A stretch of 64,000 bases of DNA, taken from contig RPFO01000072.1 of the NCBI GenBank assembly GCA_009746045.1, positions 5,514,507-5,578,506 of the forward strand. Reading direction: 5' to 3'. Shown in pieces: positions 46,500 through 60,000 of the stretch. A model generated the notes under the pieces. It had not been told where the DNA came from, did no database searches, and worked only from the letters and a program-made list of their open reading frames with translations. Both the position numbers and the translations under genes were made by a program. Source of the DNA: Mesostigma viride. Its lineage: Eukaryota; Streptophyta; Mesostigmatophyceae; Mesostigmatales; Mesostigmataceae. Each line of letters begins with the position of its first letter. Positions within the stretch are counted from its first letter, which is position 1.

Positions 46500-46900
46500 G
46501 GGCGCGCGTTGACCGAAAAGGGGGGTGCAGGCGGGGGTGGGGGCGGAGATGGAGCAGGGTGGTGATGGGGTGGGGGTGGAGGTGGTGGGGTAGGGGGGGC
46601 GGGTTGGGGACTTATGCTTTCAATCACCGTTTCGATTCTTCCTGCCAACGCGTCGAGGCGACGCTGACGGTTGGCTCGGGTGGCCAGGTAGAATGAGTCT
46701 GCGTCTGCACGCATAAGAAATGCGTGCAGTCTGAGGAGGTTTCGGAGGCGGCCGCGCGAGGCGGGGCGAACCTGGCTCACTGCCGACCCGGTGCTCTCTC
46801 TCCGACAGCCCGAGGGCTGCGAAGGCAAAGGGGCGGGAAGGGGAGTTAGGCAGATCCCACTGCTAGAGCCGCGGAGCCGCGGGGCCGCGAGCGTCGTCAT
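46127..46900 (-). pseudogene. ORF2 start of the LINE
   Basis: Starts at ATG 46,898-46,900, overlapping the ORF1 stop as ATGA. The N-terminal part (NLLRLHAFLMRADADSFYL ... RQRRLDALAGRIETVIE) has a helical character. It leaves the endonuclease frame near a Pro-rich, G/C-homopolymer stretch. Confidence 0.65.
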
Positions 46901-47351
46901 TGATAGGAGAGAAGGGTTCGCAGCGCGGGCTCCGGCTCAGGTGCAAAGCGAACGAATTTATTAGGGGGACGGCCAAGCCTGGCAGCCATACCTGAGTTGA
47001 AGTTGCCCCGGCGGATCCCCACACGTGCTGGGGAGCAGGTGACCGTCGATGCCGGTGGCGATGGCGGTGACGGCGGGGGCCGAGCAGGGGGCTGGGGCGC
47101 TGGCACGGCGGTATCCATGGGGGTCGCCGTCATTGGAGGAAGGTCCTGGCCGTTAATGCGGACGATGAAGACGCCATTAAAGAGACGGGCATAGATGCTG
47201 CACCGTAGTTGCGGGTTGGCCTGCTTGGCTGCCCGAGCCTCATGGACCTCCGGCCGGTTCAGGGCGGCAGCCCGGGCCTCAAGCTGCTCCGGGGTATAGT
47301 AATCGTCGATGCTCAGTTGGGTATCGTGGAGGTTCCGGCGGGCCTTCTGCA
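46897..47351 (-). CDS. LINE ORF1 C-terminal part (continues at 58,472)
   Basis: Reads QKARRNLHDTQLSIDDYYT, EQLEARAAALNRPEV and CSIYARLFNGVFIVRINGQD, ending LLSYQ. Removing the element and one CCTG copy joins it in frame to the ORF1 N-terminal part (HRKEDKLQ at 58,480). Confidence 0.85.
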
Positions 47352-47355
47352 CCTG
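47352..47355. other. Target-site duplication CCTG (left)
   Basis: CCTG here and at 58,468-58,471 directly flank the element. Deleting the element and one copy restores the LINE ORF1 frame. Confidence 0.85.
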
Positions 47356-47491
47356 TGTCGCGTCTGCGTGCCACAATCTCCGGCGCCACCATGGCGGCTG
47401 GCCACTCAGCTTAATTTGGTAAAACCCAAATGAGCTGAGCTGGTGCCTGCCTTAACTGCATGCCCTGTGGGGTGGGCGAGGACCTGTCCCA
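47356..47491 (-). repeat. B2 terminal repeat (136 bp)
   Basis: Plus strand TGTCGCGTCTGCGTGCC ... GACCTGTCCCA. It repeats B1 (48,750-48,887) with one 2-base indel (CTGGTGCC versus CTGACGTGCC). It forms the outer 3' end of the element. Eight bases, TGATTGAA, link it to A2. Confidence 0.9.
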
Positions 47492-47499
47492 TGATTGAA

Positions 47500-48747
47500 T
47501 GAAAAGAGGGCTCTCAGCCGAGGACAAGGAACTGTCCCTCGTGCCTGATGACCACCTTCTTGATCCCCTTGTGTACCGTCGCGTGCCGCGTTTGAATATC
47601 CTTGCTGGGGCGTTAGCTAGACGCTCCAACTACTCTAATTGCGACAATATGATGGTGCAAGAGGGTGCTTTTGCCTCCCCTGCTATAGAACAATGCTTTC
47701 ACAACACACACTTTGCACAGTCTGATGATGAAGCCGCATATGCGGAATTTATTGAGAAAGTTAATACAATTACAACACGTTGATAGTCTCAATATCGATG
47801 CACTCCATGCTCACGAGCCCGCAGTTAGGCAGCGCTCCATGACATGCTACCGGCCTTGCTCCCAAGGAAAGGGAGAAACACGAAGGCCACTAACGAGAGA
47901 CTCGAAGAGACTACACGCTGCGTGAGAGTCCTCTTCGACTATGAACCAAACCATTCGTCATGCCACACGCATGACACACGCCACACTTGTCAGTCCAGCC
48001 AGGAATGCCAAAACTATCTTGCTGCCTGAACCATGCAAATAGAAACCGCATTCCAGTTGCCGTCCTGGCTTTCTACCACACATGCCAACAAAAGCAGGAA
48101 GGCATCCCGACAAATCTAAATTGCTACCCTGTTGCCGATCTCATCTCCTAGAGGCTCCGGCATTTCTGTCCCTGGGAATGTCCGGCATTGAGTCACGTCC
48201 ACCAAGGTCGAAGCATAATATCCTTCAGACAATCTGCACGCTCACACCTTGCGTGTGAGTGGCCCAGCAAACATTGCGTCTAATCGTTCCTTTCTAGAAG
48301 AAATCCCTTTGTAGGGCTGCCAGCGATTTCGCATTCATTCCAGCGATCTGGCTCCGCACCGCAAATTGTCCTTTTCCATTTTCTGTCCAGTCCTCATAAC
48401 GTTGACCCGCTATTCTACACCACAAAGACACCTGGCCTGTCAATAGCCTCGGCGCTGTTGAAGTCCAGCAGTCCAGCTTCAGCTCCAGCTGTCCACTAAC
48501 ACGCGTATGATCCTCTCGACGCTGCGCACTTGTGCTGCCGTCCGCTCAAGTCAGTGCTGCGCGCCCAGCTGTGCCTGGCCCGGCGCGCGTGCACGTACAC
48601 TTTCGTCCGCTCTTATGCTGCAAGTGCTAGTGTCCCCCCCGGTCACTAGCCTTTGTCGAAAATGCGTAGAAAACAAATTCCTTGCGCACGTCACCGGTCT
48701 TGTGCATAGTGGGCGCCGCCCGGATGACATAGCTCGCGTCCGTGACA
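47500..48747 (-). repeat. A2 terminal repeat (1,248 bp)
   Basis: Plus strand TGAAAAGAGGGCTC ... CGTCCGTGACA. Nearly identical to A1 at 57,219-58,467: three substitutions and a one-base difference in a C run were found by eye. It is separated from B1 by the dinucleotide GC. Confidence 0.95.
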
Positions 48748-48749
48748 GC

Positions 48750-48887
48750 TGTCGCGTCTGCGTGCCACAATCTCCGGCGCCACCATGGCGGCTGGCCACT
48801 CAGCTTAATTTGGTAAAACCCAAATGAGCTGAGCTGACGTGCCTGCCTTAACTGCATGCCCTGTGGGGTGGGCGAGGACCTGTCCCA
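48750..48887 (-). repeat. B1 terminal repeat (138 bp)
   Basis: Second copy of B, located between the polypurine tract and A2. The A2-GC-B1 joint (plus strand CGTGACAGCTGTCGCG) is nearly palindromic and looks like the joined outer ends of the element. Confidence 0.9.
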
Positions 48888-48890
48888 TGA

Positions 48891-48903
48891 TTCCCCCCCT
48901 CGC
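48891..48903 (-). other. Polypurine tract
   Basis: Minus strand GCGAGGGGGGGAA, just before TCATGGGACAGG where B1 begins. This position fits plus-strand DNA priming at B1 rather than at A2. Confidence 0.8.
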
Positions 48904-48918
48904 TGGCGACCGGCCCCA

Positions 48919-50427
48919 TCACGAAGACAGCGATCGTACCAAGACAAGGGCAGCGGTGACCGCAGTCAAGCTGCGGGAGGTAAACTGCGCAGCGGTGCAC
49001 ACTGGACAAAACCAATCCCCCTCCGGAATGCTGGTGACCACTGGCTGCAAGCACTGCATGTGCCAACCACAGTTACACTGATCACACAATAACATGGACT
49101 CCGCCTGATCGACCCGGTGACAAACCTGACACTGGGCGTCCTTGACTCGGCGAGACGTGTGCGGTTGGAGGTCGTGGACCAAATTGGGCAGCGAGCAGGG
49201 ACTGAGATTGCTGAGGTTGTCAGTCGTACGGCTCCCGTCGGCGCCCTCCAAAATTGCCACTCCCGATGGTTTGATAGCCACAATGCGCAAAATGGTGGGC
49301 CCCGCCTCCACATCCAAAGTGTGCTTCAGCTGAGTGCGCAGGAAAACATACTGCCCTGGCCTAAACCGCAGCTGGCGAGCCATGTATGCGCCCCCCCGGC
49401 GCTGAGCGTAGCGCAGGGAGTCCCTGTGCTGAGCAATGAACAAGTTGTTCATCGCGATGGGCATGACCTTCTTAAAAGTCTCTGCCCTGGCCAGCACCTC
49501 AACCAAAAATTGCTGAGCGTTGTCGAAGGCCATGGGTTCGGGGTGCGCAACCTGTGCCTCCGTAGGCAAAAGAGGATTACGCCCGAACAGAAGGAAATAC
49601 GGGGAGAAGGTAGCGAGAGACTCCTGGGGAGACATGCGATAACCCATGGCAATCCATGCCAACTCGCGATCCCACCTGGCCGACTCCGGCACCTGCAGGC
49701 TCCACTTGCGCAGCGCCTGCTTGACGGTCTGCACCAATCTCTCAGCCAAACCATTGGCCTGAGGATGCTCCCGAGAAGTGCGACGGTGATCAATAAGACA
49801 TCCATCCAGCAACTCCTGGAACTCACCCCTGAACTCACCACCCTGGTCCGTGACTACCTCCGCGGGAGCCCCAAACCTGGTGATGTCCGCAAAATGCTTC
49901 GCTGTGGTAGCGGCATGCTTGTCAGCAATGGGGATCAACTCAACCCATTTGCTAAAGCTCTCCACGCATACCATGACATAGAGGTTGCCGTCAGGGCTCT
50001 CCTGAAACGGCCCGCACAGATCGACGTGCCAGCGATAAAACAAGCCCTTGATGGGAAGCGACATCAGCTCCTTGGCACCATGATCTGCGCTAAAGTTAGC
50101 CTTGGTTCGAGCACACGGGACACAGCTGGCCACTACCTGGGCCACCGTGTGTCGCATGTTATTCCACCAATAGCTGGTCCGTACGAGGCTGAGCGTGCGA
50201 TTGCCACCCAAGTGACCATACCGCTCGTGGTACGCCTGCACTATAGCAACGCGCTTGTCAGGCGGTGGGACGACCACCCTACGCTTGCCCAACAGCTTGT
50301 ACAAAACCCCATCTTCCCAACCATAGGTTGCAGCCCTGTGCTGCACCCTGTTCAACTCCGTCGCCTTCTGAGCAGGAGTCCAATCGACTGGAGTAGGAGT
50401 CAAGACAGCACCCTGCACTTGCTCCAA
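48919..50427 (-). CDS. Integrase with C-terminal PHD finger
   Basis: A 502-residue frame. An HHCC zinc domain (YHERYGHLGG ... CVPCARTKA, His67/72, Cys102/105) precedes the RNase H-fold core with the DDE triad (WHVDLCGPF Asp136, VVTDQGGEF Asp194, PQANGLAERLVQ Glu229). A typical Gypsy C-terminal beta domain follows (RFRPGQYVFLRTQL). At residues 433-477 there is a complete C4HC3 PHD finger (CQVC ... LLCDQCNCGWHMQCLQ ... WFCPVC). PHD fingers commonly bind histone H3 tails, so it may steer insertion as chromodomains do in chromoviruses. The frame opens upstream of the ATG-equivalent, overlapping the RT frame by 28 bases. Confidence 0.93.
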   Translation of the reverse strand: MEQVQGAVLTPTPVDWTPAQKATELNRVQHRAATYGWEDGVLYKLLGKRRVVVPPPDKRVAIVQAYHERYGHLGGNRTLSLVRTSYWWNNMRHTVAQVVASCVPCARTKANFSADHGAKELMSLPIKGLFYRWHVDLCGPFQESPDGNLYVMVCVESFSKWVELIPIADKHAATTAKHFADITRFGAPAEVVTDQGGEFRGEFQELLDGCLIDHRRTSREHPQANGLAERLVQTVKQALRKWSLQVPESARWDRELAWIAMGYRMSPQESLATFSPYFLLFGRNPLLPTEAQVAHPEPMAFDNAQQFLVEVLARAETFKKVMPIAMNNLFIAQHRDSLRYAQRRGGAYMARQLRFRPGQYVFLRTQLKHTLDVEAGPTILRIVAIKPSGVAILEGADGSRTTDNLSNLSPCSLPNLVHDLQPHTSRRVKDAQCQVCHRVDQAESMLLCDQCNCGWHMQCLQPVVTSIPEGDWFCPVCTAAQFTSRSLTAVTAALVLVRSLSS

Positions 50428-52943
50428 ACTCGACCATCTAGCCAGATATCAGCGGTGTAGCAATCAGCAAGAGAGCTACGCGCTAAGAGAGCCTGCACAG
50501 CGATCAGCTGCTGCAGAGAAGGATCAATGTCAAAGGACAGAGACCTACCCTCTTCCATAGCGCACACAGCTTTGGATGGCGTGAATGGCGACGGCCGCAC
50601 CGGGTCGTCGCTGATGCCGAAGTCCGCCACAGAGTACTCGACACTGCGCCACCACGCCTCCTCCTCATCGTCGGCCGCATACCCAGCAGCGTTCACAAAG
50701 ACCACAGAACCAGACGAGCCCTCGGCACCCATGGCCCGGGCTCCAGTGTGGTCAACAGTGGTAGGCATGGCGTATCGGGATAGCACATCGGCGTTGACAT
50801 GGTCCTTGCCGGCCCGATGCACAATGGTCATGTGGTACTCCTGGATAATCATGGCCCATCGGGCGAGCTTACCCGTCAGGTTGGTGTTGGTCATTAGCCA
50901 CTGAAGCGGCTGGTGGTCTGTCACCAGAGTAAACACGCGCCCAAATAAATACGGGCGAAAGTGCTTGATGGCCCACACCACAGCCAGTGCCTCCCCCTCA
51001 TAGGAAGAATACCGGCTCTCCGCTGGGTTGTTGCTGCGACTAGCATAAGCAATAACGTGCTCGCGCCCATCACCATCCTTTTGCGCCAAGACCGCACCCA
51101 GTCCTACCTTGGACCAGTCGGTATATAACACAAATGGCAAAGCATAGTCAGGGGCGCGCAGAATCGGTGCCGACGTGAGCTCCTGCTTGATTGTCTCGAT
51201 GGCGCGTTGCTGTGCGGGACCCCACGCCCACACGCACCCCTTCTTGAGTAACTCGGTCAAGGGCTTCACCTTGCTGCTGAAGTTCTCAATGTAACCTCGG
51301 TAATAGCCAGCCAAACCCAAATACGCCCGCACCCCTGAGACATCCGTGGGTACGGCGGCCTGCGCAATGGATTCGACCTTGGCGGCATCAGGCGTCCGGC
51401 CACCCGGCACAATCTGATGACCAAGGAATGAGAGGGTCCGCTGGGCGAACTTGCACTTCTCAGGGTGCAGCCGCATATTATGCTCCTCGAGAGCCAAGCG
51501 AACCTGCTCCAAGTGCGCCAGGTGCTCCTCAAATGTCGCGCTAAAGACGATTACATCATCAATGTAACAAGCGGCGAAAGGAAGACCTGCAAGCACTTTG
51601 TCCATAGCTCGTTGGAAAACAGCACTAGCGTTGCGGTGCCCAAAGGGCATGCGCACCCACTCATACAAATTGCCGCCCCCCCAGAATGCAAGCTTCCGCT
51701 GATCCTCCGGCGCAACTGCGATCTGATGAAAGCCGCTACGCAGGTCCAGCGAGGACACAAACTTCACATGAGGAGATATCTTATCCAGGACATCATCCAC
51801 ACGTGGCATGGGGTAACGGTCCACGGGTGTGTGTGCATTCAGCAACCGCAGATCGGTGGCCATGCGCATACCCGTCCATGCCCCGGTGATAGCGTCCTTC
51901 TTGGGCGCAACGACAACGGCAGCAGCATAGCTGGAGGAAGATTGCCTGATGATACCGGCATCCTCTAACTCCTTGCATTGCTCGGCTACAAAATCCAACT
52001 CGGCCTGACTCAGGCGATGCTGGCGTCGGAACAAAGGAGTGTCAGTGTCCAATGGAACACGCATGGTCCCACCATTGAAACACCCCAGTTCATCACTTGT
52101 GAAAGCGAAGGCCCCCCTTGCAGTGCCTAGCCACTTTAGCATGGCTGAGCGCTGCGCATCAGAAAGGTGTTCGCCAATAGCCCAGGGGTGCGTATCCGCG
52201 GGATCACCCACAGCTACCGCATGTGCCTCAAGATGCGGCGCCCTAGCCGCATCGTCGTGGAACAAGGAAAAGGCTGCCACACCTGGTGTGACACCCACCG
52301 CCGGAGCCTCGCGTGCCGCACGGTGTATTACCCGATGCAGCGTGGGCTCGCCGGCCAGCACGGTGCTGGTCAGCAGGGCGGTCATGAGAATGATAGTCCA
52401 CACCTGTCGCAGACGCCACCCCCATGCTGATGAAGTCCCCGTCGCTGCAGGGCGCTTCAGTTTGGCTGCGCGCGCCTCAACCTGCTGAGGCGGATTGGCT
52501 GGGGACGCCCCCCCAGACTGGCGCACGGCAACCGATGCAAGCAGCACATACCCGACCTGCAACACCGACATAGCCTGGCCTATCAAAGACCAGCGCTCAC
52601 TCTCGAGCACGCCCGGCAGCGCCGAGGCCCCGACATGAAAACCCATGCTGGCCTCACGAAATTCTGCGGGTGGCTGCACCAACAGACCGGTGGTAGTGTC
52701 CCAAACGAGACCCTTACCCCGATCACGGTATGCTGTCGACCCTTGGTAACTGACCAGGGTCGGCAGTGCACACATGGGGCTCCCGACCCGGTTGACGCGT
52801 GCATACGGTGGGCGATCCTCGCTATCCACCTTCTGCGTGACTAGGTGGGAAGGCAATGCTACCTCCGCAGACACACTCGGATGCTGCCTTGCTACGGCCC
52901 CAAGACCGCCTGCACACCGGTCGCACACGCCACGTTGGTCCAA
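50400..52943 (-). CDS. DNMT C-terminal part, reverse transcriptase and RNase H
   Basis: An 847-residue frame. Residues 1-135 look like the end of a C5-methyltransferase (PPAEFREASMGFHVGAS, then ERWSLIGQAMSVLQV, motif IX/X-like), so the domain continues from the overlapping frame. A hydrophobic stretch VWTIILMTALLTSTVLA (about 181-197) follows. The reverse transcriptase runs from about 290 to 560 (IIRQSSSSYAAAVVVAPKKD, SLDLRSGFHQIAV, catalytic YIDD at 460-463, FLGHQIVPGG). RNase H covers about 600-720 (VLYTDWSKVGLGAVL, YEGEALAVVWAI, TDHQPLQWL). Gypsy-type throughout, with no stop or missing catalytic residue. Confidence 0.93.
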   Translation of the reverse strand: MDQRGVCDRCAGGLGAVARQHPSVSAEVALPSHLVTQKVDSEDRPPYARVNRVGSPMCALPTLVSYQGSTAYRDRGKGLVWDTTTGLLVQPPAEFREASMGFHVGASALPGVLESERWSLIGQAMSVLQVGYVLLASVAVRQSGGASPANPPQQVEARAAKLKRPAATGTSSAWGWRLRQVWTIILMTALLTSTVLAGEPTLHRVIHRAAREAPAVGVTPGVAAFSLFHDDAARAPHLEAHAVAVGDPADTHPWAIGEHLSDAQRSAMLKWLGTARGAFAFTSDELGCFNGGTMRVPLDTDTPLFRRQHRLSQAELDFVAEQCKELEDAGIIRQSSSSYAAAVVVAPKKDAITGAWTGMRMATDLRLLNAHTPVDRYPMPRVDDVLDKISPHVKFVSSLDLRSGFHQIAVAPEDQRKLAFWGGGNLYEWVRMPFGHRNASAVFQRAMDKVLAGLPFAACYIDDVIVFSATFEEHLAHLEQVRLALEEHNMRLHPEKCKFAQRTLSFLGHQIVPGGRTPDAAKVESIAQAAVPTDVSGVRAYLGLAGYYRGYIENFSSKVKPLTELLKKGCVWAWGPAQQRAIETIKQELTSAPILRAPDYALPFVLYTDWSKVGLGAVLAQKDGDGREHVIAYASRSNNPAESRYSSYEGEALAVVWAIKHFRPYLFGRVFTLVTDHQPLQWLMTNTNLTGKLARWAMIIQEYHMTIVHRAGKDHVNADVLSRYAMPTTVDHTGARAMGAEGSSGSVVFVNAAGYAADDEEEAWWRSVEYSVADFGISDDPVRPSPFTPSKAVCAMEEGRSLSFDIDPSLQQLIAVQALLARSSLADCYTADIWLDGRVWSKCRVLS

Positions 52944-54115
52944 TAGGCACGCAAACGATGCGTGAGCCCACCCAGCCCTGCGTTGTCACACACGATGGGC
53001 TCCCCCAGGAGTGCCACGATTGTAGCCCAGTCCTCCCGCACCGCCTGATGTGGGCTGTCACCCGCCACAACGTTCTCAAACAGATACGCAGGCGGATGGG
53101 GCTGACGCGACTGCAACAGTCCCACCACACGCAACAGTTCCCAGAACAGCGCGCTACGCGGATCGGCTAGCCCCCGCCCTTGCCCTGCCTGGCTCAGGCC
53201 CTGGCACTCCCAACCCGCAATTACCAAGTCGATGGCATGATGCCTGCGCAACAACTGCTGCACCTGCACCTCACCGATGGCTCGGATATCTTGAGGACAT
53301 TCCCCAAACGGGTCACGCCATGCTGATGGCGGAAACTGCGCGGGATACTCTCGCGACAACACGCCACAGTGACTGAAGTACACCTGACGCGCCTTGTGCG
53401 ATGGCTCTACCGCGATGAGTTTACGGCACACGCCGCCTGCGGCCAAAAAGCCTGCAATGCCCCCTCCGATCCCCGCAAACAGTTCCAACACTACCGCACC
53501 CTTGGCAAAATCAGGGGCCTGCGGTAAGATTGCAGCAGAAAAATTACCTTGGGCCTCCGAGACACCCGGTTGCACCAAAGTGAGGCCATGGCTGGCCATC
53601 TGAGGAATGGTGATGACGGCTTCAGTCACCCGCTTGCGCATAGCCAGCTGCCGCGTGGACGTCACAGCATCCAGCGACCACTGCGTGCGCATCTTGGCAA
53701 TGCTCGCCGTTGGCTGAGGCAGCACCGTCCGATGCTTGTCCCACGCCGATGAGCCCGCCGCCCGTACCTCCACCATGCTGACCTCCACCACGCCCGCAGC
53801 CGCGGAAGGGTTGAGGCGTGCAGCCCCGGCTGAAGAACTGAAGCATGAGACCGGCACACTGGCCCGCTTCAGGCCAGCCCCATCCCAATCAGGGATGTAA
53901 GATGCCTCCTCCGCCCTATAGTCCACCTGAACCATGGCGCGAGCAAGGACATCCACCCCGAGTAGTGCGGAATATCCACACTTGTTGACCACCAGCGCAT
54001 ACGCGGACACGGTGGTCATGCTAGAGGCGCGCAACGGATTGAAAATCACGTTGACTTTAACCGCCGTCATAGCGTACGGCTTACTAGCCGGACCCTGCCA
54101 ACCTGACACAGACAC
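52892..54115 (-). CDS. Protease C-terminal part and C5-cytosine DNA methyltransferase
   Basis: A 407-residue frame. Residues 15-60 complete the retropepsin (GYSALLGVDVLARAM is its second signature). From about residue 205 it is a C5-DNA methyltransferase: motif I VLELFAGIGGGIAGF (209-223), motif IV GWECQGLSQAG with the catalytic Cys304, motif VI LFENV (345-349), motif VIII THRLRAYWTN (385-394). The usual Pro before the catalytic Cys is Glu. Motifs IX/X continue in the next frame. The enzyme would transfer methyl from SAM to C5 of cytosine. Its place between protease and RT inside a Gypsy polyprotein implies release by the protease or action as a fusion. Confidence 0.92.
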   Translation of the reverse strand: MSVSGWQGPASKPYAMTAVKVNVIFNPLRASSMTTVSAYALVVNKCGYSALLGVDVLARAMVQVDYRAEEASYIPDWDGAGLKRASVPVSCFSSSAGAARLNPSAAAGVVEVSMVEVRAAGSSAWDKHRTVLPQPTASIAKMRTQWSLDAVTSTRQLAMRKRVTEAVITIPQMASHGLTLVQPGVSEAQGNFSAAILPQAPDFAKGAVVLELFAGIGGGIAGFLAAGGVCRKLIAVEPSHKARQVYFSHCGVLSREYPAQFPPSAWRDPFGECPQDIRAIGEVQVQQLLRRHHAIDLVIAGWECQGLSQAGQGRGLADPRSALFWELLRVVGLLQSRQPHPPAYLFENVVAGDSPHQAVREDWATIVALLGEPIVCDNAGLGGLTHRLRAYWTNVACATGVQAVLGP

Positions 54116-57069
54116 GGGGCTTTCACTAAGCCACCGTTCTCGTAGGTCAGGTTCAGCATGGTGGCCAAGTCTGTGCTGATGACTAGCGGCTGAGCACCGC
54201 TATCAAGCTTGACTGCGCCAACCAACGGACATGTCACCATGTCGCTCCATACATCTCCACAGGCTCCAACTGCTTGGAACGCTATGGACGGCTCACCATT
54301 GGGGTATGGAACCACCGTGGGAACCTGGGGAACTGCACTAGTGCGCTGCTGGCTACTTGTGCTGACCACTCCCGCTTGCACCACGGGCACTGCGGCTTCT
54401 ACCGGCTGACGCCCGTAGGTGACGGACTCAGAATTGCGCAAGGTGCGCACATCATGCCCATCTGCGAACAACTGGATCTCGGACACAACCGACCCCAGCC
54501 ACTCAACCCCCTTCTGCCCGAAGGTGTCGACCACCTGCCGTGCTGAAAACATGGGTACGTCCACAATGAACGGCATTGGGTACACAGGCGCCAATCGCCT
54601 ACGCTGCTCCAGCCCAGCAGGGTTCGCATGCTCAAAAGCAGATTGCACCCCAGCCAGCGGCATGGAAAAGGACGCGGGCAACTGCCCGGCAGGCAACATG
54701 GGTGCCTGCTGAAAAGAAAGCGGGCTGCGTGCCTGCTTGCCTTTGGTAGCCTCCGCAGCGTTGATCTCGACGTCACCCGGCATGGGCGCCCAGAATGGGT
54801 CCTCCCGGTACACCGTCGCGAATTGGTTGGGGGGCGCCGTCGCCTCCTCACCATGCTTGATGGCAGCCACCTGGGCTTCCATCGAGTCGGTCTTGCCCGC
54901 CATCTCGGCGAAGTGGACCGTCTTGATGCCCGCGGCTGGACACTTGTTCATCAGGTGCCACTTCGTGTCTGCCCCATGCGGCTTCGTGCAGCGGCTTGGA
55001 CACTCGCGACTAAGGTGCCCATCCTTGTCGCAAAGGTAACATTTACCGCGTGACGGGGTGGGTGCGCCCAGCGCGCCTTGCACGCCCTGCGCCTCCTGAG
55101 TCCCATCCGATGACGGCGGACGACCGCCTCCGCCTCGACCACCACCGCGACCCCGACCACCGTAGCCACTGCCGCCGCCACCACGACTGACACCGCCGCT
55201 GCCACCCTGACCGCCACCGCCGCTGCCCCCGTGACCGGCGTTGCCACCACCCTGAGTGCCGACATATTCACCGCGCCCCGCACCAGGCAGCCGCTGGCCA
55301 CCCTTGACCGCGATGGCCTTCTCCATCTCAGCCATCTTCTTGCGCATCTCAGCCAGCTCAGACGAGATACCCTTCTCGCCTTCCGCACGCTTCCTGAGCA
55401 GCCGCTTGAATGCTGCACAGAGAGTCACCAAAGTCCACTCCCCACCGGGCGGCTCCGGAAGATCGATGGCCAGCAGGGGCACTGCACTCCGCCATAACCG
55501 GCAAGCCTTGGTCTGCGTATAATCAGGCACTTTGCCCGCAAACGCGAGAAGCCGGTCAAGGGAGAAAGCCGGATCCTCACCCTCGGCGACGGTGAACGCT
55601 CCATTCCATTCCGCGATGGCCTTGACGTGCTCAACTGGGTACTCCAGCCGCAGTTGCTGCCACAGCTGCTCTGCCGGGTCGACATCGAAGATGATCGAGT
55701 CGAGATCCGGTGTGCCCATGTCCGTGAGCGCAAACCATATGTCCGTGCGATGACATCGGTCCACGAGCGCTCGGTAATGCTGGACCAAAACCTGGACCTT
55801 CTTCTTGGTCAGGTCATGGAAAAAAAGGTGAATAAAATCCATCACCATCTCATGGCGAAGAGGATACCCCGAGGCATAACGATAAGTGTTACAATGAGCT
55901 CGGAAGAGCTCATAGGCTTCCTCTAAAGTCGCACCCGTGCCTGCTGAGGTGAACTTCTCGCGAAGCTCCACCTTGGGCAGCGATGGCACACGAGTGGATT
56001 CGCCATGCACGCCGTACGGCATGCGGTGGGGTCGCTGGACGTCGTCGCCCTCACCCCATGGTATGCTGGCTACCTCCCGATCGACTTGGCCCCAGCCGAA
56101 GTCTGACCGAGTGCCGCCAAGCCTGGGCCGCCCTGCGGTGCCACCCAACGGCGTTGCTGCCGCCGTCATGGGTGGCCGACCTGTGCTAAACAAGCCACCT
56201 GATGCTCCCCCCCTGGGGGCTGCACCATACCCGCCGCGCCACGATAACGTGCCTTGGTTGGGTGCCCGTAGGTTCCCCCCCAGCGTATAAGATGCGTCGG
56301 CAGTCGACCGGGTGCCTACCCGACCGACGTTCGGCTGCAGCTCGTCATCCTGCGCCATTTCCCCGTCGCCCCGCCGTTGACCGCTTGGTCCGACGCGTGG
56401 CTGACTGGGCTCAACGTTGCGTAGTGGACCTGTCCCACTGCGCTCTTCGTCGAAGTGTCCGCGTTGGTCGCGCAGCGCCTCATGTCGCCGCGCTTCCTCG
56501 GCAGCGGCCTCCTCGTCGGCAGCCTGCCTGGCCTCGGCGTCGCGTTGGGCCGCAGCTTGGCAGGCGCGTGCAGCTTCCGTGGTTGCCTCCGCCTGCCGCC
56601 GTTGCTCAGCGCGCTCCGTAGCACGCCTCGCTTCAGCCGTAGATTCCGCGCGCTCCAAAGCAAGTCGCACAGTTTCTTCAACAAGCGTCGCCTGTTGCGA
56701 TAACTGCGTCGCTTGCTGAGCTCGGAGTGCCGCCAGCTCTGCCGCTTGCTCTTGCAGCAGGCGCAGCACTTGGGTAAGAGCACCACCGTCCCCTGCCGAA
56801 GAAAGGGAAGGCGCTCCATTACCTAACAAAGCGGTGTCCGCACTAGTGCCGAGACGACCGCTGGGCGGGTCAGTTGCTTGACCGCCCGTAGCTGCCGGCG
56901 CTGACCCACCACTGCCTGATGCTGTGGGGTCAGTTCCTGACATGTTGATGGTGGTATCGACCCTGGAGAGCTCCTGCCCGTCGGTGTCGACGCCCGTGTT
57001 GGCACAGCCTGCGTGGCTTGCCAAAAACGCTGTGACCGACCTAGTGTGATATGACATAAACTGCCACAA
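54067..57069 (-). CDS. Gag polyprotein with coiled coil, zinc knuckle and start of the protease
   Basis: A 1000-residue frame. A Ser/Gly-rich N-terminus precedes a long Ala/Glu/Gln/Arg coiled coil (about 90-205: LQEQAAELAALRAQQATQ ...) and a Gly-rich linker. A capsid-like helical region follows (about 370-560: EEAYELFRAHCNTY, VMDFIHLFFHDLTKKKVQVL). Next come a Gly/Arg-rich basic stretch (SGYGGRGRGGGRGGGG) and a CCHC knuckle CYLCDKDGHLSREC near residue 675. Near residue 955 it enters the retropepsin active site VKLDSGAQPLVIS, whose other half is in the overlapping frame. The start could be residue 1 or the later Met at NMSGTDPTAS. Confidence 0.9.
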   Translation of the reverse strand: MWQFMSYHTRSVTAFLASHAGCANTGVDTDGQELSRVDTTINMSGTDPTASGSGGSAPAATGGQATDPPSGRLGTSADTALLGNGAPSLSSAGDGGALTQVLRLLQEQAAELAALRAQQATQLSQQATLVEETVRLALERAESTAEARRATERAEQRRQAEATTEAARACQAAAQRDAEARQAADEEAAAEEARRHEALRDQRGHFDEERSGTGPLRNVEPSQPRVGPSGQRRGDGEMAQDDELQPNVGRVGTRSTADASYTLGGNLRAPNQGTLSWRGGYGAAPRGGASGGLFSTGRPPMTAAATPLGGTAGRPRLGGTRSDFGWGQVDREVASIPWGEGDDVQRPHRMPYGVHGESTRVPSLPKVELREKFTSAGTGATLEEAYELFRAHCNTYRYASGYPLRHEMVMDFIHLFFHDLTKKKVQVLVQHYRALVDRCHRTDIWFALTDMGTPDLDSIIFDVDPAEQLWQQLRLEYPVEHVKAIAEWNGAFTVAEGEDPAFSLDRLLAFAGKVPDYTQTKACRLWRSAVPLLAIDLPEPPGGEWTLVTLCAAFKRLLRKRAEGEKGISSELAEMRKKMAEMEKAIAVKGGQRLPGAGRGEYVGTQGGGNAGHGGSGGGGQGGSGGVSRGGGGSGYGGRGRGGGRGGGGRPPSSDGTQEAQGVQGALGAPTPSRGKCYLCDKDGHLSRECPSRCTKPHGADTKWHLMNKCPAAGIKTVHFAEMAGKTDSMEAQVAAIKHGEEATAPPNQFATVYREDPFWAPMPGDVEINAAEATKGKQARSPLSFQQAPMLPAGQLPASFSMPLAGVQSAFEHANPAGLEQRRRLAPVYPMPFIVDVPMFSARQVVDTFGQKGVEWLGSVVSEIQLFADGHDVRTLRNSESVTYGRQPVEAAVPVVQAGVVSTSSQQRTSAVPQVPTVVPYPNGEPSIAFQAVGACGDVWSDMVTCPLVGAVKLDSGAQPLVISTDLATMLNLTYENGGLVKAPCLCQVGRVRLVSRTL

Positions 57070-57202
57070 CCACTACCAAGTAGCAACGGTCTAATCTGAA
57101 AGACTTAATGGTTGATCAGGCCACTATGTGTGCTAGTCTTCCCCAGAAAACTGCACACCGTCTCTCTTTGCTGAAATGAAAATGTTCCTTTGCAGATGGA
57201 GC

Positions 57203-57216: not shown

Positions 57217-57218
57217 AA

Positions 57219-58467
57219 TGAAAAGAGGGCTCTCAGCCGAGGACAAGGAACTGTCCCTCGTGCCTGATGACCACCTTCTTGATCCCCTTGTGTACCGTCG
57301 CGTGCCGCGTTTGAATATCCTTGCTGGGGCGTTAGCTAGACGCTCCAACTACTCTAATTGCGACAATATGATGGTGCAAGAGGGTGCTTTTGCCTCCCCT
57401 GCTATAGAACAATGCTTTCACAACACACACTTTGCACAGTCTGATGATGAAGCCGCACATGCGGAATTTATTGAGAAAGTTAATACAATTACAACACGTT
57501 GATAGTCTCAATATCGATGCACTCCATGCTCACGAGCCCGCAGTTAGGCAGCGCTCCATGACATGCTACCGGCCTTGCTCCCAAGGAAAGGGAGAAACAC
57601 GAAGGCCACTAACGAGAGACTCGAAGAGACTACACGCTGCGTGAGAGTCCTCTTCGACTATGAACCAAACCATTCGTCATGCCACACGCATGACACACGC
57701 CACACTTGTCAGTCCAGCCAGGAATGCCAAAACTATCTTGCTGCCTGAACCATGCAAATAGAAACCGCATTCCAGTTGCCGTCCTGGCTTTCTACCACAC
57801 ATGCCAACAAAAGCAGGAAGGCATCCCGACAAATCTAAATTGCTACCCTGTTGCCGATCTCATCTCCTAGAGGCTCCGGCATTTCTGTCCCTGGGAATGT
57901 CCGGCATTGAGTCACGTCCACCAAGGTCGAAGCATAATATCCTTCAGACAATCTGCACGCTCACACCTTGCGTGTGAGTGGCCCAGCAAACATTGCGTCT
58001 AATCGTTCCTTTCTAGAAGAAATCCCTTTGTAGGGCTGCCAGCGATTTCGCATTCATTCCAGCGATCTGGCTCCGCACCGCAAATTGTCCTTTTCCATTT
58101 TCTGTCCAGTCCTCATAACGTTGACCCGCTATTCTACACCACAAAGACACCTGGCCTGTCAATAGCCTCGGCGCTGTTGAAGTCCAGCAGTCCAGCTTCA
58201 GCTCCAGCTGTCCACTAACACGCGTATGATCCTCTCGACGCTGCGCACTTGTGCTGCCGTCTGCTCAAGTCAGTGCTGCGCGCCCAGCTGTGCCTGGCCC
58301 GGCGCGGGTGCACGTACACTTTCGTCCGCTCTTATGCTGCAAGTGCTAGTGTCCCCCCCCGGTCACTAGCCTTTGTCGAAAATGCGTAGAAAACAAATTC
58401 CTTGCGCACGTCACCGGTCTTGTGCATAGTGGGCGCCGCCCGGATGACATAGCTCGCGTCCGTGACA
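57219..58467 (-). repeat. A1 terminal repeat (1,249 bp)
   Basis: The 5' end of the element, minus strand TGTCACGGACGCGAG ... CCTCTTTTCA. It holds promoter and primer sequences; see the self-priming site. No copy of B lies next to it, unlike A2, which has B on both sides. Confidence 0.93.
57619..57632 (-). promoter_or_regulatory. Predicted 5' end of element RNA / self-primer segment
   Basis: Minus strand TAGTCTCTTCGAGT is complementary to the primer site at 57,203-57,216. If transcription begins near 57,632 the RNA 5' end would be the primer. A weak TATA-like TTCATAG lies about 30 bases upstream (57,658-57,664). Confidence 0.4.
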
Positions 58468-58471
58468 CCTG
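58468..58471. other. Target-site duplication CCTG (right)
   Basis: Pairs with 47,352-47,355. Four bases, not the five seen at the other LTR element in this window. Confidence 0.85.
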
Positions 58472-59482
58472 CAGTTTGTCCTCCTTGCGGTGGAATTCCA
58501 CCAAGACAGGGGCGGTGGTGCCGCCGAGCCGTCGTGCCGTTTTGATGACGACGCTTTGGGCCACGCCGAGCTTCCCCAGGAAGGGGTCGCCTCGGAGGTA
58601 GGTGCCCAGGCGTGCATCGTTGACGTTCGAGGGGACGCCACGTACCACAATACTGCATGAGCGAATGGGTTCGTGCATAGCATCCCTTGTGCTGGCCTTG
58701 ACGGCTGTTTTGATTTCGTTGATGAGCTCCGTAGGGTTCTGAAGCGTGGCGGCATAGGTGGTCTTGGCAGGAGTTATGGAGGCAAGTTGTTGCTGGAGCT
58801 GGTGGAGGAGCTGCTGCTGCTGCTGCTGCAGCCCTGCTGCAATGTGGGTGATGGCGGAGTGGATGGAGGTGTCGGCGTGTGAGGAATGGGCGTGGTGGGT
58901 GGCGAGGTGGTTGTGGACAGGGTTGAGGGCAGCGTTGAGGAGGGGAGGGAGGCGATCGAAGCAGGTATTGGCGACTTGCTTGGCGGTGATGTTGATGGCG
59001 GCCGCAACAGTGGGGTCGGCTCCCAGGTCCAGAGAGGCCATGACAAAGCTCTCAAGGGCGCTGTCGGAAAGACGGGAGCACGTCCACCAGACTGCGAGGC
59101 AGAGGTCAGTGTCGTCGGGGTCGTCGTGGAGAAAGTCCGACAGGTGGGTAACCTGTTGGTTGCAGTCCCGGATCTCGCACTTTTTCTCGGCAGCCAGGTG
59201 CAGGATGGTGAGGGCGGCAGCTCGGGACAGGCGCATGATGGCGTTAAGGCCTGGCCATTTGCCAGGTAAAAATGCGGCAGCTTCCTCGGCAGAAAAGGCC
59301 TCCTCGCGGGTATCCATGGCAGGGTCGCTGTTCGGCGGAGCGGTGGAGTGGAGCGGCTGGATGCTGACAGTGGCGTCCGGCATAGCGTGCAAGGGTGTTT
59401 CCAACGACGCCATGGCTTCATCAGCGAGTTGGTGCAGGGCCGCGGACGCTTGTGATTGCTGGGATGAGTCGTATTCCGCCAT
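58472..59482 (-). CDS. LINE ORF1 N-terminal part
   Basis: Starts ATG 59,480-59,482 (MAEYDSSQQSQASAALHQL). It has helical, Ala-rich repeats, a poly-Gln coiled coil (LQQQQQQLLHQLQQQLA) and an RRM-like region (SCSIVVRGVPSNVNDARL, VVIKTARRLGG, PVLVEFHRKED). It matches the L1-type ORF1p layout of coiled coil then RNA-binding domain. It ends at the insertion and resumes at 47,351. Confidence 0.85.
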
Positions 59483-59497
59483 ATCGAGCTGAAAAAA

Positions 59498-60000
59498 CAG
59501 CGATATTTGCTGGGCAGGGCGGTGGCGGTATCTTCGAAAATATTGAGCGATAGTTGTAGAAAATTATATCAGCGTGTTCGTCTTTAAAAGACGAGTCTAA
59601 TGCAACCAACCCGATGAAATTTCATGGCCGGAGTCAAAAGTTATGAGCATTCTCGTATATTGCAACAGCGATATTTGCTGGGCAGGGCGGTGGCGGTATC
59701 TTCGGAAATATTGAGCGATAGCTGTAGAAAATTATATCAGCGTGTTCGTCTTCAAAAGACGAGTCTAATGCAACCAACCCGATGAAATTTCATGGCCGGA
59801 GTCAAAAGTTATGAGCATTCTCGTATATTGCAACAGCGATATTTGCTGGGCAGGGCGGTGCCGGTATCTTCGGAAATATTGAGCGATAGCTGCAGAAAAT
59901 TATATCAGCGTGTTCGTCTTCAAAAGACGAGACTAATGCAACCAACCCGATGAAATTTCATGGCCGGAGTCAAAAGTTATGAGCATTCTCGTATATTCGT
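59498..60000 (-). repeat. LINE 5'UTR monomers, 168 bp x 3
   Basis: CAGCGATATTTGCTGGGCAG starts at 59,498, 59,666 and 59,834. The array lies directly upstream of the ORF1 ATG. Each unit holds a CGTCTT...AAGACG hairpin. Such promoter-bearing monomers are known from mouse L1; a diverged single unit is at about 14,590-14,700. Confidence 0.88.

Follow-up and report, generated by a model that had tools for sequence, protein, structure and literature searches.

The window analysed here is a stretch of 64,000 nucleotides from the streptophyte alga Mesostigma viride (assembly GCA_009746045.1, contig RPFO01000072.1, positions 5,514,507 to 5,578,506 of the forward strand), and it contains a retrotransposon with a Gypsy-type Pol in which a C5-methyltransferase lies between the protease and the reverse transcriptase (RT), at 53518-52524 on the minus strand; a PHD finger closes this Pol. 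The element and its parts are listed below in the order of their coordinates, with the evidence for each.

47352-47355, no strand: 4-bp target site duplication (CCTG on the plus strand) on the 3′ side of the element, identical to 58468-58471
47356-47496, minus: B2, the outer right repeat part, ending ...CGCGACA (repeat comparison)
47498-48747, minus: A2, the second A repeat copy, differing from A1 by 4 mismatches (one just outside A) and 1 gap column
48748-48749, minus: GC spacer between B1 and A2, in a CA-GC-TG junction (repeat comparison)
48750-48892, minus: B1, the inner B repeat copy (repeat comparison)
48997-49131, minus: PHD finger at the Pol C-terminus (Pfam PF00628, E 2e-9), also in the L014 copy and the MAG element
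49762-50037, minus: DDE integrase core, rve (Pfam PF00665, E 5.4e-11)
50098-50268, minus: integrase H2C2 zinc-binding domain (Pfam PF17921, E 4.4e-17)
50835-51224, minus: RNase H (Pfam PF17917 and PF17919)
51411-51905, minus: reverse transcriptase (Pfam PF00078, E 1.2e-27)
52524-52769, minus: part of the methyltransferase with motif IX/X, read in the frame of RT (tblastn; aligned with beta and with the MAG element)
52895-53518, minus: methyltransferase motifs I, IV (WECQ), VI (ENV) and VIII (Pfam PF00145; model pLDDT 82.6, nearest folds DNMT3A/3B)
53900-54204, minus: aspartic protease region with DSG, limits approximate and crossing a frame change (DSG in frame 57072-54067; alignment to the MAG element)
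54067-57072, minus: 1001-aa frame holding gag, a zinc knuckle of CCHC type (55047-54994) and the first part of the protease (six-frame reading, Pfam)
57217-58467, minus: A1, the 5′ terminal repeat, starting TGTCACGG (repeat comparison)
58468-58471, no strand: 4-bp target site duplication on the 5′ side of the element, identical to 47352-47355

A sequence-only reading of this DNA had placed the methyltransferase at 52550-53510, with motifs I, IV, VI and VIII between protease and RT and IX/X-like sequence continuing in the RT frame; the coordinates prove correct to within about 30 bases, and the two parts are seen at about 53518-52895 and 52769-52524. New beyond that reading are the WECQ form of motif IV, the splitting of the window copy over several frames and the split direct repeats. 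Motif I, the catalytic Cys of motif IV, the ENV of motif VI, the RxR of motif VIII, and motifs IX-X are all found in order. The window copy is frame-broken, with its methyltransferase and the rest of Pol spread over several frames: a 435-aa frame at 54199-52892 carries motifs I-VIII (Pfam DNA_methylase PF00145, E 2.8e-12), and six-frame reading puts motifs IX-X followed by RT and RNase H in frame 52985-50400 and the integrase and PHD finger in frame 50448-48919. The order of protease, RT, RNase H and integrase, with a DDE integrase, is that of Ty3/Gypsy elements (Metaviridae); Pfam matched no protease family in the window frames, and the protease is called from its DSG motif and from alignment to a related element in a metagenome-assembled genome (MAG). 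No phage integrase was matched by Pfam in the window frames or in the Pol of the copy L014, rve and H2C2 being matched instead.

The element is abundant in its own genome, which was searched as 440 Mb in 2243 contigs (the genome of Klebsormidium nitens, another alga with such an element, is about 0.1 Gb). The rbcL of the host has chain 1gk8, from Chlamydomonas, as its closest match in solved structures, which are not known to include a charophyte. Among 721 first-look candidates, 97 scored places match the window piece at 99-100%, and merging these with 89 listed matches to the methyltransferase of this family, which we call alpha, gives at least 147 distinct places that carry it. While the window copy is broken, intact copies are present: in 35 of the 89 alpha matches listed the methyltransferase sits in an uninterrupted frame, 2073 or 2074 aa long, and this Pol frame was read directly in five copies (L009, L010, L011, L013 and L014). 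We also note that near-identical Pol genes are accompanied by two distinct gag genes (and inner A parts), one in L009, L010, L011 and L013 and the other in the window copy and L016; the difference among these subfamilies appears to be one of gag exchange.

The same domain order recurs in two further families. The first, beta, is in the same genome (L052, L053, L056; at least 29 matches at 86-100%), where a methyltransferase about 65% identical to that of alpha is followed by RT and RNase H. The second was found in a scan for relatives over prokaryotes, with one genome per species and the best 80 of 148 related stretches used. Set apart from the rest of these 80, contig CADCWO010000201.1 of a 'Synechococcales' MAG is 42-43% identical over the whole methyltransferase domain and codes for a gag-like region (CCHC-like motifs by eye, without a Pfam match), a protease (Pfam Asp_protease_2, E 7.8e-4, under the Pfam cut-off), methyltransferase, RT, RNase H, integrase and PHD finger. 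Aligned with alpha, it is identical at 35/117 positions in the protease, 92/194 in methyltransferase motifs I-VIII, 21/50 in the recognition part, 31/77 in motifs IX-X, 135/278 in RT, 104/160 in RNase H, 125/248 in the integrase core and 23/52 in the PHD finger. Because five other contigs of this MAG (CADCWO01, 'Synechococcales' in GTDB) also have matches to Gypsy-type Pol, six in all, we interpret the MAG element as mis-binned eukaryotic DNA, whose source could be a Klebsormidium relative. The ends of the contig share 127 identical bases, by which the assembly joins it back to its own start, and this hides the type of its repeats. A single in-frame TAG (L142:3489-3491) separates methyltransferase from RT in the MAG element, and read-through and decay are both possible for it.

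Comparison of alpha (L014) with beta (L052) indicates that the methyltransferase domain is under purifying selection. Over the domain pN is 0.231 and pS 0.737; pS is near saturation, and since synonymous sites are too saturated omega is not quoted, but pN is well under pS. By part, pN is 0.221 in motifs I-VIII, 0.172 in motifs IX-X and 0.357 in the recognition part, as against 0.397 in the linker to RT, 0.127 in RT and 0.090 in RNase H; the methyltransferase evolves more quickly than RT and more slowly than the linker. The claim of the sequence-only reading that a methyltransferase is built into a Gypsy Pol is upheld by this selection, by the copy number, and by the same order in three families.

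The repeats of the window element are arranged A1-internal-B1-GC-A2-B2, which are split direct repeats, a trait of DIRS/PAT elements. Its outer ends are TGTCACGG and CGCGACA, and they are confirmed by the flanks, as removing the element and one duplication rejoins these into a single 516-aa open frame. The 80-bp B-GC-A junction has 100% identity in all 40 places scored, from 606 candidates in the genome. Both ends were read in 17 copies, namely the window copy, L010, L011, L013, L016 and 12 of 20 picked from the list of 97 (5 of the 20 lacked the A start in the piece taken, and 3 more lacked the B end); 15 of these 17 have perfect 4-bp target duplications. Identical long terminal repeats (LTRs) at both ends are absent: in 15 of the 17 copies the left end is A only and the right end is B-GC-A-B (of this end, the 12 picked copies were read at B-GC-A and at the final B), and the other two, L010 and L016, are A-internal-B only, with no terminal repeat. 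None of 15 A starts in the picked copies had B-GC directly before it, whereas in the tandem copy on contig C111 (L009) the A start does follow B-GC; the copies there are arranged head to tail with common B-GC-A junctions. DIRS/PAT elements are characterized by a tyrosine recombinase and by no duplications; here there is a DDE integrase instead, and the target is duplicated.

The 516-aa frame into which the element is inserted (46900-47355 and 58472-59563, minus strand) has no Pfam match. An RT frame (PF00078) at 44516-43620 comes after it on the same strand, suggesting that the insertion target was probably a LINE-like element. Elsewhere in the window, a 168-base unit stands three times in tandem at 59496-59999, the later copies being 95-98% identical to the first.

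Ranked by family profile and by fold, the methyltransferase is nearest to DNMT3 rather than to DNMT1, MET1 or DNMT2, and the nearest structures to its fold model (pLDDT 82.6) are DNMT3A/3B; the list from fold alignment (VIA-align) contained no DRM chain, which carries no weight against DRM. We therefore class the domain as DNMT3-type on profile and predicted fold, an assignment that does not imply eukaryotic origin, since bacterial relatives score as high or higher and the one tested (L066) is itself nearest DNMT3A. For the same reason a phage is no more than one candidate source, although phage matches had first suggested capture of a phage methyltransferase. The nearest free-standing relatives found are DNMT3-type enzymes of bacteria and phages (L066; Pelagibacter phage HTVC134P, L017), about 30-41% identical over the best stretches; they differ from the element domain in being separate genes, and in having SPCQ as motif IV in those aligned. 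Two scans of viral contigs found no relative, and a third gave 49 distant loci, among which the frames of L198 were read as a phage-like methyltransferase with WPCQ. The motif IV pattern returned the Pro form at 25 of these loci and nothing at 24, including the WPCQ-bearing L198, and is thus leaky and carries no weight. The genome also contains many short single-exon methyltransferase frames (L022-L051, on small and Mb-sized contigs such as C35, C47:644530, C1468:5244968 and C1579:8868612), mostly of 304-387 aa and of FPCQSFSNAG type, to which the retrotransposon profile gives about 18-26 bits and which we take for a multi-copy viral or other mobile element.

We consider it probable, if not securely so, that this is a recently multiplied Gypsy element with split direct repeats whose Pol carries a DNMT3-type methyltransferase that acts on the element's own cDNA or fresh insertion. 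Observed in this reading are the order of the domains, the number of copies, the conservation of the methyltransferase over long times, its DNMT3-type profile and fold, the integrase, the arrangement of the repeats and the 4-bp duplications. The methyltransferase would be made and packaged with Pol and would act on newly made cDNA or on the fresh insertion, its most likely substrate being the element's own cDNA; cytosine methylation could then make a new copy look like methylated host DNA, or could shield the cDNA. The GC-spaced B-A junction would point to cDNA synthesis by way of split repeats as in DIRS rather than by ordinary LTR transfer, with B-GC-A allowing cDNA to be finished on an RNA whose start and stop both lie within A. 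The DDE integrase would then join the linear DNA at its outer ends, the start of A and the end of B.

Several observations weigh against such an account. Of the 97 listed places, 32 stop at the residue where the methyltransferase frame of the window copy breaks, and all seven of these that were inspected (L001, L003-L008) have the frame break of the window copy before motifs IX-X. Copies with a broken methyltransferase thus did multiply, probably in trans, which speaks against a need for the enzyme in cis, and the shared break hints at mobilisation in trans or at frameshifting. In all 16 alpha and all 3 beta copies inspected, motif IV is LVIAGWECQG, so that the Pro-Cys dipeptide typical of C5-methyltransferases is replaced by Glu-Cys. 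In the MAG element it is LVIAGWPCQG, and Pro is present in 88 of 88 motif IV pattern matches among the prokaryote loci (87 PCQ, 1 PCT; only loci with a pattern match counted); Pro to Glu would therefore most simply be a derived change, fixed in the branch of this alga. When the domain of the Klebsormidium element was tried in yeast no methylation was seen, an outcome that its authors regard as inconclusive (PMC5890265). Methylation by the element of its own DNA is plausible, with this and the Glu of motif IV to set against it. The assignment to DNMT3 is likewise less firm when the alpha sequence is compared alone with solved structures, where DNMT3A fails to reach E 1 and the best matches are a chain named only 'DNA methyltransferase' (5.3e-5), HaeIII (8e-4), HhaI (1e-3) and DRM2 (1.2e-3), and an alpha/beta profile gives little separation between DNMT3A (7.5e-6) and HhaI (2.6e-5). 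Finally, L013 has no target duplication and that of the copy on C1579 is off by one base.

Of the alternatives, the one that survives best, although we think it doubtful, is that the methyltransferase was acquired apart from that of Klebsormidium, the donor being a DNMT3-type gene of a bacterium, a phage or the host; the sequence-only reading had raised independent capture as a possibility. Against the family profile, bacterial enzymes reach as much as 78 bits and those of phages as much as 57, above DNMT3A at 49 (two profile builds from the same alignment), and two other host methyltransferases are remote from it, L055 at -0.7 bits and L054 at 6.9. L054 (C1402:3168900-3170237), which we take to be DNMT1-like, lies in an unusually long open frame of 2065 aa. 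No free-standing host DNMT3 was seen in the inspected part of 127 PF00145 matches, among which exon-split genes can escape. However, the Klebsormidium element has the same type of DNMT, the same Gypsy domains and DIRS-like repeats (PMC5890265), making common descent at least as likely as independent capture, and the MAG element, with its identical order, shows that the lineage extends beyond the present genome.

It is rather unlikely that the domains of alpha and beta have lost methylation activity and persist in Pol to bind DNA or a cofactor, although there is a model for this in DNMT3L, which serves DNMT3A as a non-catalytic partner. Loss of the motif IV proline may leave room for such a role: Glu is fixed in alpha and beta despite about 35% amino acid divergence, Pro being present in the MAG element and the prokaryote matches, and the yeast result (PMC5890265), inconclusive as it is, would fit as well. 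Yet the change has left in place the catalytic Cys, ENV and the arginine pattern of motif VIII, which would be dispensable without catalysis, and pN is low in both motifs I-VIII and IX-X. Less likely still is an enzyme whose main targets lie in trans, in the host genome or in RNA, and which is retained since widespread methylation reduces damage to the host or is to its advantage; the high copy number and the discussion of host-wide effects and possible RNA substrates in PMC5890265 fit this, but the location inside Pol, between protease and RT, favours the element's own nucleic acid as the target. That a host exon was inserted just once, or that motifs fell into line by chance, in a window copy that is admittedly frame-broken can be dismissed, since the genome-wide count that the sequence-only reading proposed as a check finds at least 147 places, 97 of them scored at 99-100%, and finds the domain again, at about 65% and 42% identity, in two more families of the same order, the MAG element included, under purifying selection.

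We tentatively propose that the element belongs to an old split-repeat Gypsy lineage, present in at least two eukaryotes and plausibly in Klebsormidium too, in which the DNMT3-type enzyme is a standing part of the Pol core and not a passing capture, and that the branch in this alga exchanged the near-invariant Pro of motif IV for Glu under purifying selection, with a changed chemistry, a changed specificity or a purely structural role as the result. The same layout in distant families, and more than a hundred near-identical copies within one genome, suggest that methyltransferase-bearing Gypsy elements are not peculiar to one charophyte. What an element gains from its own methyltransferase becomes testable with many young near-identical insertions and a natural contrast between WECQ and WPCQ.

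Methyltransferases on retrotransposons of dinoflagellates and charophytes, for which the sequence-only reading pointed to a 2018 study, are described by de Mendoza et al. (2018, PMC5890265) from Symbiodinium and Klebsormidium. Further reports place some DNMT3s within retrotransposons (Copia and DIRS are named) of streptophytes and dinoflagellates, orphan DNMTs also being known (PMC12344493), and list Gypsy and DIRS clade retrotransposons with adenine or cytosine methylases, the two enzymes not separated, with green algae included (PMC6338049), which makes a green-algal case less novel; we found no further recognised case of such an element in the open-licence literature. Ordinary Ty3/Gypsy LTR elements share with the present one the order of protease, RT, RNase H and integrase, TG...CA ends and short target duplications, whose length is 4 to 6 bp for the majority of LTR retrotransposons (PMC12440569), but here there is no identical terminal repeat pair and there are an extra methyltransferase and PHD finger. 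SymbioDIRS-Dnmt3 of Symbiodinium resembles it in having a DNMT3-type domain in a Pol with RT and repeats in the order A-coding-B-A-B, and differs in having a tyrosine recombinase in a separate frame where here there are a DDE integrase and target duplications; de novo CG methylation in yeast has been demonstrated for the Symbiodinium DIRS elements, for which methylation of cDNA is proposed (PMC5890265). The closest likeness is to KnitGypsy-Dnmt3 of K. nitens (de Mendoza et al. 2018, PMC5890265), a Gypsy element in 'fewer copies' than that of Symbiodinium, whose description, with a DNMT3 in the Pol frame, DIRS-ordered repeats together with Gypsy domains, and purifying selection on the methyltransferase, also fits the element of M. 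viride. A Gypsy element with a DNMT3 in Pol and DIRS-like repeats has thus already been described, and that of this alga joins a known kind, set apart from the accessible description of KnitGypsy-Dnmt3 by its Glu for Pro, its Pol-terminal PHD finger and its 4-bp duplications. What is added here is a wider lineage, the target duplications, and a Glu beside the catalytic Cys in both families of this genome.

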